Source: a virus. From it: 38,044 nt of DNA. Shown piece after piece: positions 13,570 to 38,044 of this stretch (positions are counted from its first letter, which is position 1; the number at the start of each line of letters is the position of its first letter). The translations under genes and the position numbers were made by a program. The notes under the pieces are model-generated. The model made no database searches. It worked only from the letters and a program-made list of their open reading frames with translations, and had not been told where the DNA came from. The DNA lies in the IMG/VR virus record IMGVR_UViG_3300027841_000161, positions 1 through 38,044 of that record. One strand, given 5' to 3'.

Positions 13570-14007
13570 TTACTCCGCAGCGATCTCGATCTCTTCGACC
13601 GTCAGCTTGTCTTCGCCTTTGATCTGCTTGATCTGCTCATCGGTCAGCTCAGACACCGGCACGATGTTCTCGCCCTTGTTCCAGGCGCGGCCACCGCGAC
13701 GGAAACCGTCACGACTTGCAGTCACACGCAGCGCGGGCACCTTGCCGGTTGGCTTGGTGGCTTCGGCCAGTGCCTTGGCTTCTGCATCGGCTTTGGCTTT
13801 CTCATCAGCAGCAGCTTGTGCAGCAGCTGCATCGGCTTTGGCCTTCTCGTCTGCAGCCGCTTGTGCAGCCTCAGCGTCCGCCTTGGCCTTCTCGTCTGCA
13901 GCAGCCTGTGCAGCTGCTGCATCCGCCTTCACCTTCTCGGCAGCAGCCTTGGCCGCTGCATCCGCGCTGGGTTTCGCTGTGGATTTACTGGGGGTTGTTT
14001 TTGCCAT
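13570..14007 (-). CDS. HI1506-like (Mu gp35 region) protein with Ala-rich coiled-coil repeats
   Basis: 145 aa. ATG 14007 is preferred because GGAGA stands 6 nt upstream; an ATG two codons earlier is too close to it. The C-terminal 50 residues (PALRVTASRDGFRRGGRAWN, then LTDEQIKQIKGEDKLTVEE) are the HI1506/gp35 domain found between capsid and gp36 in Mu-like phages. The N-terminal 27-71 region is three near-identical 15-residue units of KADA(A/E)AAQAAADEKA, a long Ala-rich helix. The gene follows the structured RNA after the capsid gene. Role: minor head or head-tail protein, inferred. Confidence 0.8.
   Translation of the reverse strand: MAKTTPSKSTAKPSADAAAKAAAEKVKADAAAAQAAADEKAKADAEAAQAAADEKAKADAAAAQAAADEKAKADAEAKALAEATKPTGKVPALRVTASRDGFRRGGRAWNKGENIVPVSELTDEQIKQIKGEDKLTVEEIEIAAE
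13795..13929 (-). repeat. Three 45-bp tandem repeats within the HI1506-like gene
   Basis: Residues 27-41, 42-56 and 57-71 are KADAAAAQAAADEKA, KADAEAAQAAADEKA and KADAAAAQAAADEKA. A partial fourth unit follows. In-frame repeat number could vary between relatives by slippage, changing the length of a helical linker. Confidence 0.9.
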
Positions 14008-14030
14008 GATCATCTCCAAAAATTAAGAAG

Positions 14031-14150
14031 GGTGGATTGAAGTGGCCTACGAGATACCCCGGTGGCCCTGCATGTCAGACAACTCGATGCTGCCAGGGCA
14101 TGCTCCCGCTATGGGGGACTGAAGCTTTCGCTCCAGCCACCTCAATCCAT
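14031..14150 (-). ncRNA. Structured RNA element after the capsid gene (Mu-gpT downstream element-like)
   Basis: Minus-strand RNA beginning about 7 nt after the capsid stop and ending just before the SD of the next gene. A long closing stem pairs 14149..14136 with 14046..14033 (14 bp, one G-U). Inside it are a hairpin at 14136..14119, CTGGAGC with GCTTCAG around a GAAA tetraloop, and a stem GCCCTG/CAGGGC (about 14098..14064) with further CAT/ATG pairing; CCCC and GGGG runs can also pair. No ORF explains the conservation of pairing. A conserved RNA of this location, named Mu-gpT-DE, has been described downstream of gpT genes in Mu-like phages; identity here is by position and multistem form, not by a covariance search. 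Function is unknown. Confidence 0.7.
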
Positions 14151-14156
14151 AACTTG

Positions 14157-15227
14157 TTAGCCGCCTGCGCCGGTAGAGCCGTAGCAGGTCTGCCAGAAAC
14201 CGTAACCGGCAGCTGCGCGGGCTTCTGCGCCGAACTTGAACATCTTGCGCTTGAACACATCATCAGACTGCGCGTCGGTCTGCTCGACGAACACCGGCGC
14301 TTTACGCTCTTGGTAGATGAATGGCTTGATGACCTTGGTGGTATCCAGCAGGAACCATGCAGTGCTGGATGTCAGGCGCGGAGATACGACAGGCTTGAAC
14401 ATGCCCTTGTACAGGTTGGCCTTGCCGTCTTCGAGACGATCTGCCGTGTACAGCGTGTTGGCCACGTCGCGCAGTGCAACAGGCACCAACAGGATGACCG
14501 GCGTCACGTTCAGCGGGCGACCTTCGTCATCCTTGAACAAGCCCATCGCCGTGGCAGCCGCACCCAAGCTGGCCTGTGCCAACGCCTGCGTTGCAGCAGA
14601 CAGCACTGCTGTGCCCTTGTTGGATACTGATTCTTTTGCGCCGGTTGCAGGGTTGGTCACCGGGTGATCGGTGTCGCAGAAGAACTGGCCATCGAAGCAC
14701 AAGCCGGTGAATGCGCCGTTGACCGCCTCGAACACCAACTCGTCTGGCAGCTGCGCAGAAGACTCGCCAGCGGCCTGCGCCTGTGTGCTGTAGATGCCCA
14801 GGATGTCATCCTCGACATCGTTGCGATCGACTTCTACTGTTGCCTCAAAGTCTTCGTTCTCAACCAAATATTTGAAGGCTTCCAGCGACTTGATCTTCTT
14901 GTCCCCGACCCAGCGCTGCATCTTGGGGAATTTGCTCAGCCACTTGTAATCGTTGGCACCGGATGTCGATGTCACCTTCATGGCGATATCAGGCCAAACG
15001 GCTACAACCGCGCTGAATGCATTGTTGAACGACGTCTTCAGGCTGACGAACAGGTTGGCGATGTTGTCGCGGTTGACGATCATGCCGCCCATCGCGAAGC
15101 CCAGCGCGCCATTGCCGAGTACATCGGCATTGATCAAGCCGGGCTGCATGGGCGAACCCACGGACAATGTGGCGACGGCCAGCAGCGCTGCACCGATCAA
15201 CCACGCGAAAGATTTAACTGTTTTCAT
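14157..15227 (-). CDS. Major capsid protein, Mu gpT family, with hydrophobic N-terminal extension
   Basis: 356 aa. The gpT core starts near residue 49 (MIVNRDNIANLFVSLKTSFN, compare Mu MIVTPASIKAL) and contains YKWLSKFPKMQRWVGDK, DRNDVEDDILGIY, LCFDGQFFCDTDHPV and KPFIYQERKAP, all gpT hallmarks. Residues 1-48 are extra: a basic end, then WLIGAALLAVATLSVG, which looks like a signal or membrane segment, then a Gly-rich stretch. ATG 15227 has an excellent SD (AAGGAGAG), whereas the internal ATG at 15083 has only weak GGGCGG. The extension is therefore probably translated, and may be cleaved by the phage protease or act in prohead assembly. It makes the shell of the icosahedral head. Confidence 0.93.
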   Translation of the reverse strand: MKTVKSFAWLIGAALLAVATLSVGSPMQPGLINADVLGNGALGFAMGGMIVNRDNIANLFVSLKTSFNNAFSAVVAVWPDIAMKVTSTSGANDYKWLSKFPKMQRWVGDKKIKSLEAFKYLVENEDFEATVEVDRNDVEDDILGIYSTQAQAAGESSAQLPDELVFEAVNGAFTGLCFDGQFFCDTDHPVTNPATGAKESVSNKGTAVLSAATQALAQASLGAAATAMGLFKDDEGRPLNVTPVILLVPVALRDVANTLYTADRLEDGKANLYKGMFKPVVSPRLTSSTAWFLLDTTKVIKPFIYQERKAPVFVEQTDAQSDDVFKRKMFKFGAEARAAAGYGFWQTCYGSTGAGG

Positions 15228-37507: not shown

Positions 37508-38044
37508 ATGTTCACTCATACCATAACCGACAGCAGTGCGATCGACGCCTTCAACCGGCTGATCGCACTGAATGCAGACCCCAGTGGCCCGCTGAAGGGA
37601 ATCGGCGAACTGGCGACCGCCTTCACCAAGCAACGCTTCGAGCTGAGCCAAGACCCGTATGGCACGCCCTGGGCACCGAACTCGGATACCACGCTGCGCG
37701 CACTGCTGCACGACCGCAGCGGCACGTTCACCAAGAAGGGCAAGGTGTCGGCCAAGGGCGGCCGGCTGCTGGCAGGCAAGAAGCCGCTGATCGGCGAATC
37801 GAAGACGCTGTCGACCCAGATCCACTACACGGTGATCGGCAATGACAGCGTGACTATCGCGGCCACCGCTATTCAGGCTGCCATGCAGCACTTCGGAGGC
37901 GACAAGGTCCAGTTCCCTCACCTGTGGGGCGACATCCCCGCCCGGCCCATCTTTCCGGACGAAGCCAGAGGGCTGCCGGATGAACTCACACAAGGTTCTA
38001 TTGATATACTGCGCACTGCGCTGGAGAATTCCATCCGAGGTTGA
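37508..38044 (+). CDS. G: Virion morphogenesis protein (Mu gpG-like)
   Basis: 178 aa, complete; the stop is the last codon of the window. NRLIALNADPSGPLKGIGEL, FTKQRFELSQDPYGTPWAPN and the terminal HLWGDIPARPIFPDEARGLP are the PF05069-type pattern of Mu gpG. It acts in tail completion/head-tail joining. In Mu the next gene is I; here I lies at 17.1 kb on the other strand, so the Mu order is broken after this gene. Confidence 0.88.
   Translation: MFTHTITDSSAIDAFNRLIALNADPSGPLKGIGELATAFTKQRFELSQDPYGTPWAPNSDTTLRALLHDRSGTFTKKGKVSAKGGRLLAGKKPLIGESKTLSTQIHYTVIGNDSVTIAATAIQAAMQHFGGDKVQFPHLWGDIPARPIFPDEARGLPDELTQGSIDILRTALENSIRG

Follow-up and report, generated by a model that had tools for sequence, protein, structure and literature searches.

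The capsid gene and its downstream gap

The stretch of DNA analysed here, referred to as the window, is the record of a Mu-like phage, 38,044 nucleotides long (IMGVR_UViG_3300027841_000161), on the minus strand of which the gene for the capsid protein gpT is followed by a non-coding gap and then by a gene with a FluMu_N domain, also described as HI1506-like (Table 1). The gene after the latter is Mu Gp36-like, and essential tail genes follow downstream on the gpT strand. The gpT reading frame ends with TAA at 14159-14157 and the ATG of the downstream gene is at 14007. Since both flanking genes are on the minus strand, this is the coding strand and an RNA from the gap would be its minus-strand copy.

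Table 1. Coordinates of the genes, the gap and the predicted stems in the window
Feature	Position	Strand	Description
gpT, major head subunit (capsid)	14157-15227	-	356 aa; Mu-like_gpT PF10124 5e-90, phrog_371
gpT-downstream gap	14008-14156	-	non-coding, 149 nt, from gpT stop to next start codon
Folded element	14033-14149	-	117 nt, predicted five-way junction; -57.5 kcal/mol, z -4.5, 0/1000 shuffles
P1 5' arm	14139-14149	-	pairs with 14033-14043; probabilities 0.74-1.0
P1 3' arm	14033-14043	-	partner of 14139-14149
P2	14117-14138	-	9-bp hairpin (14138-14130 / 14125-14117), GAAA loop 14129-14126; probabilities 0.84-1.0
P3	14105-14115	-	weak 3-bp hairpin, pair probability about 0.54
P4	14070-14103	-	two-part hairpin, 5 + 6 bp; probabilities 0.97-0.98, one isolated pair 0.39
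P5	14044-14067	-	two-part hairpin, 4 + 4 bp; probabilities 0.95-0.98
SD of downstream gene	14014-14017	-	GGAG, outside the junction
FluMu_N-domain gene (HI1506-like)	13570-14007	-	145 aa, Ala-rich repeats; PF17891 2.3e-9

Several other features of this phage were observed. The gpT protein carries an N-terminal extension of about 48 residues (15227-15080, minus strand) containing a hydrophobic stretch of membrane- or signal-like character (MKTVKSFAWLIGAALLAVATLS...), which is unusual for a major head protein; it is also present in the relatives L001-L003 and absent in most other gpT relatives, whose matches begin at residue 47-49. In the FluMu_N gene, 45-nt tandem repeats at 13782-13965 (3.7 copies, 83% matches) give rise to an Ala-rich, AAAQAAADEKAKADA-like N-terminal region. 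The Mu-type head genes are split by strand between 29000-38044 (plus) and 1-28000 (minus): a terminase-like gene, the portal gene (33159-36253) and an F-like gene (36256-37422) belong to the plus strand; protease I, gpT and the tail genes follow the transposition genes on the minus strand. The split may reflect either a genuine rearrangement or the assembly. The GC content is 0.52 at 28001-30000, near the switch of the coding strand, compared with about 0.61 elsewhere.

The gap is predicted to fold into a multistem RNA

Folding of the whole gap on the minus strand gave -60.2 kcal/mol with a z-score of -3.47, and none of 200 shuffled sequences was equally stable, while the complementary plus strand reached -51.0 kcal/mol. 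The genome is GC-rich, GC content contributes to the absolute stability of the element, and about 0.6% of the genome windows of the same length (117 nt) are equally stable in absolute energy; the argument for a structure therefore rests on the z-score and not on the raw energy.

A preliminary description of this DNA, which named no strand, had placed a multistem RNA, closed by a 14-bp stem and containing a GAAA-capped hairpin and a further stem, exactly between the gpT stop codon and the next SD. The significance of the fold together with the Pfam matches of the flanking proteins (Mu-like_gpT 5e-90, FluMu_N 2e-9) bears out a multistem RNA at the boundary of the gpT and HI1506-like genes, and on these calculations we regard the structure predicted on the minus strand as confirmed. 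The GAAA-capped hairpin was recovered as P2, with 9 bp, and more than one further stem was found, P4 and P5 mostly at probabilities of at least 0.95 and P3 weakly. As to the closing stem, P1 can indeed be extended from 11 to 14 bp (14149-14136 with 14033-14046, including one G-U pair), but the minimum-energy fold uses only 11 of these pairs, the last three bases of each arm pairing within the neighbouring hairpins. Shuffling the sequence 300 times yielded stems of at most 11 bp, and a 14-bp stem at this site is not a product of chance alone. The placement proved roughly right: the fold begins 7 nt past the gpT stop and terminates 15 nt before the SD and 25 nt before the start codon. The SD has an alternative pairing in a weak 4-bp hairpin with 14027-14030, at a probability of about 0.44, and a U-rich stretch (UUCUUAAUUUUU) lies a few bases 3' of the element. 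The predicted coding-strand fold contains six G-U pairs and a GNRA loop, which is suggestive only of an RNA rather than a DNA element. We found no tRNA- or tmRNA-like feature in the element, and neither an intrinsic terminator nor a promoter-like site within 13800-14500.

Comparison with the Mu-gpT-DE family

The element had been taken to correspond to Mu-gpT-DE (RF03012), with which it shares the gene neighbourhood, as indicated by the name of the family and by the Pfam matches, both lying between gpT and the next late gene; as a member it would control initiation of the downstream gene. A search of the whole window with the RF03012 covariance model gave no match at the gathering threshold (49 bits), the family was absent among Rfam matches up to E 10 in 13900-14300, and over the stretch of the element the matches at E 10 were chance-level only. 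The loci of 40 relatives contained no match to RF03012 either, and none was found at the cut-off among 398 genomes of the phylum, an absence that is weakly shown since no control genome matched. Moreover, the architectures differ. The RF03012 consensus, read from weak sub-threshold matches in two genomes, is 53 nt long and ends at the AUG, and of its two stems, an outer stem CCUG/CAGG and an inner hairpin, the former sequesters part of the SD in its 3' arm (CAGG), whereas the window element exceeds this length more than twofold, with five stems over 117 nt, and leaves the SD outside the junction. We therefore rejected the identity with Mu-gpT-DE, and initiation control by a member of this family is scarcely credible for the element. 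The literature consulted contained a single mention of RF03012 and nothing further on RNA downstream of gpT.

Searches for relatives of the element

No second copy of the element was found within the virus record. Searches of phages, plasmids and viral contigs at the DNA level and with exact and gapped patterns, as well as an exact 20-mer scan of genome contigs, gave no convincing match, and a DNA search of genomes returned chance-level pieces only, the best of them 26 nt long (E 4e-4 among 399 genomes). The element itself was also turned into a covariance model, which gave no match above chance level over 158 genomes and about 0.5 Mb of gpT loci. As no homologue was found, the element's own base pairs are without covariation support.

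The gap behind gpT in relatives

For comparison, gpT loci were drawn from genomes as well as viral contigs, and in 203 of these the gap that follows gpT was analysed. The nearest relatives, L001-L003, are 84-88% identical to the window in capsid-core DNA, and matches of about 88-91% run up to the stop codon; all three are without the window element, and their gaps are unalignable with the window gap and carry unrelated hairpins, namely a short hairpin in L001 and L003 and a near-perfect palindrome of REP-like look (GTAGGAGCGCGATTCATCGCGC...) in L002. The short hairpin is common to L001, L003, L039 and L118. Its 9 pairs are 100% paired in these four loci and six of them are compensated by changes on both sides, whereas shifting the partner column by one to three positions lowers the paired cells to 29-46%; since the alignment is small and hand-trimmed to the hairpins, we take this covariation as supportive, not conclusive. 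These hairpins resemble the window element in occupying the same gap behind the same capsid lineage and in being structure-conserved, but they are 25-30 nt long, have a CCUGAG/CUUGAG-like loop and cannot be aligned with it. Compensatory changes in relatives, which the preliminary description had called for, were thus seen in a hairpin family of the same gap, while the homologous gaps hold different, unalignable hairpins. The two absences that it had named as jointly counting against its claim, of a model match and of covariation in homologous gaps, were found by half, in that the model did not match; the covariation seen belongs to the hairpin family and not to the element itself.

Strong structure behind gpT turned out to be widespread. 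In 65 distinct gpT-downstream gaps of 40-160 nt the mean folding z was -3.06 and 77% lay below -2, and collapsing the loci to 54 capsid clusters left a mean z of -3.02 with 41 clusters below -2. Using one mechanical gene caller for both sets, we found a mean z of -2.56 for gpT gaps versus -1.04 for 179 other gaps of the same loci (Mann-Whitney p=4e-9). Across gpT gaps the fold starts at a median of 7 nt past the stop codon. Terminator-like sites were rare, with 7 of 65 gaps matching on the coding strand versus 5 on the antisense strand, and terminator-like hairpins with U-runs occur in a few relatives (L103, L130, L170 and L175). On the other hand, 70 of the 203 gpT loci, most of which match the window capsid at 60-70%, have gaps shorter than 35 nt, with no room for such an element, and an RNA element in the gap is common but dispensable across the group. 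Over all gaps the sense strand was the more stable in 30 of 64 (p=0.88), which shows no strand bias that would point to selection; RNA-level selection is consequently not demonstrated for the collection as a whole.

Two further observations were made in these loci. The gap directly upstream of gpT holds very strong hairpins (z below about -6) in L066, L178, L181, L190 and L044. A second motif family (CGCGCGACGCCGATA...), 75-90% identical between different members, is found behind gpT in L083, L090, L169 and L180, two of these four loci being in Burkholderia and Pandoraea genomes, and gave no Rfam match where scanned.

Some gap hairpins of relatives are dispersed repeats

In five loci (L043, L077, L087, L092 and L096) further copies of the gap hairpin stand in other gaps of the contig. 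Gap hairpins were also compared with the genomes assigned to the phage contigs, some of which are MAGs, the contig-to-genome assignment being assumed. Within the genome assigned to each, the gap repeat of L092 matched 49 times, over many contigs, and that of L043 13 times, and neither matched any of seven other genomes; these two of the five hairpins tested are dispersed repeats of the assigned genome. The hairpins of L105 and L038 were rejected as host repeats, each being single in its genome, as was that of L077, with only one nearby duplicate.

A proposed cis-acting barrier and the competing explanations

From a single long message, phages have to produce capsid protein in large excess over most other late proteins. 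What was observed is the predicted fold, its location behind the capsid gene, and the fact that relatives are enriched there in strong structures not homologous to it, and these observations favour action in cis on the capsid mRNA, as the preliminary description had suggested; its other suggestion, that the RNA is packaged, is unsupported. We propose that the element is a cis-acting intercistronic RNA barrier, REP/malE-like, that shields the 3' end of the capsid mRNA, a reading to which we give an even chance of being correct. The element would lie on the late polycistronic mRNA directly behind the gpT stop codon, and transcription would cross the gap. Once the downstream message had been cleaved or ended, the fold would block 3'-to-5' exonucleases, and capsid mRNA would stay abundant relative to the following genes, while the SD of the next gene would stay free. 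The anatomy fits such a barrier in that the fold lies just past the stop, no U-tract follows directly, the SD is outside, and in the relatives structure is kept without sequence.

Operon genes needed in excess can have a stable fold at their 3' end that halts 3'-to-5' exonucleases, the classical case being the malE-malF structure, which protects against PNPase and RNase II (PMC5927463). With regard to this 3'-protective class, the window shows a stable predicted fold shortly after an operon gene's stop codon and no intrinsic-terminator U-tract directly behind the stem, and the position-specific enrichment of structure behind gpT in relatives supports, but does not strictly define, membership. 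REP sequences and malE-malF are alike to the gpT case in that a strong fold without a directly following U-tract stands behind an operon gene needed in quantity, and dispersed palindromic repeats are held in other gpT gaps; the difference is that here the operon encodes a phage capsid and the element is single-copy in the record and forms a predicted five-way junction. In the cip-cel operon, highly expressed genes for the subunits of a complex carry 3'-terminal stem-loops that set subunit stoichiometry, with the transcripts of the flanking genes standing in a ratio that follows stem-loop strength (PMC4423207). That, however, is a bacterial cellulosome operon whose stem-loops are reported with orthologues in related species (PMC4423207), whereas in the gpT gap unrelated structures replace one another.

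The main rival to a barrier is that a mobile or host-derived palindromic element, such as a REP cluster or a MITE-like sequence, sits without function in a tolerant gap, so that the fold reflects palindromic DNA. Dispersed repeats fill the same gap in other gpT phages (L092 with 49 matches, L043 with 13), copies stand in other gaps of the contigs of L043, L077, L087, L092 and L096, and the closest relatives are without the window element, all of which would agree with such an insertion. Against this, the element occurs once in the record and had no convincing match in the phages, plasmids, viral contigs and genomes searched, a target-site duplication is not evident by eye, and the gap hairpins of L105 and L038 are not repeated in their genomes. 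Its predicted fold is also multibranched rather than a simple palindrome, and it is the coding strand that folds better and has the six G-U pairs and the GNRA loop. We consider a functionless insertion unlikely.

Ranked after it is a transcription attenuator, by which termination behind the capsid gene, partial or assisted by Rho, would lower downstream transcription. The location after the structural gene in greatest demand, the U-rich stretch a few bases after the element and the U-run hairpins of four relatives speak for attenuation, but no terminator-like site was present in 13800-14500, gap matches on the coding strand (7 of 65) stand against 5 on the other strand, and essential tail genes follow downstream on the same strand, so that we hold it to be improbable. 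Still less can be said for a processed stand-alone small RNA acting in trans, or a ribozyme: a plain barrier would not require anything as elaborate as a compact, well-defined five-way junction with a GNRA loop, but Rfam at E 10 gave chance-level matches only, no promoter-like site was found and there is no conservation in relatives, which makes such an RNA very improbable.

A possible replaceable structure behind the Mu-type capsid gene

The occupant of the gap in the window phage is an unusually elaborate five-stem fold among many unrelated hairpins. Extending the barrier reading to the group, we tentatively suggest that the gap following the Mu-type capsid gene serves as a functional slot, where the presence of a strong fold is conserved but its sequence is exchanged wholesale, including by recruited dispersed palindromic repeats of the host, and that the junction in the window is an independently acquired occupant, functionally interchangeable with unrelated hairpins; we rate this proposal, taken as a whole, at somewhat below an even chance. 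A fold behind gpT that is conserved in position, replaceable in sequence and fillable by host repeats would be a more interesting result than the single element. If it is true, one could understand why Mu-gpT-DE, a family defined by sequence, covers just part of these elements, and REP-like repeats in phage genomes would gain a benefit open to testing. Repeated occupation of this gap by unrelated folds, host repeats among them, would constitute a natural experiment on how phages set capsid dosage through RNA.
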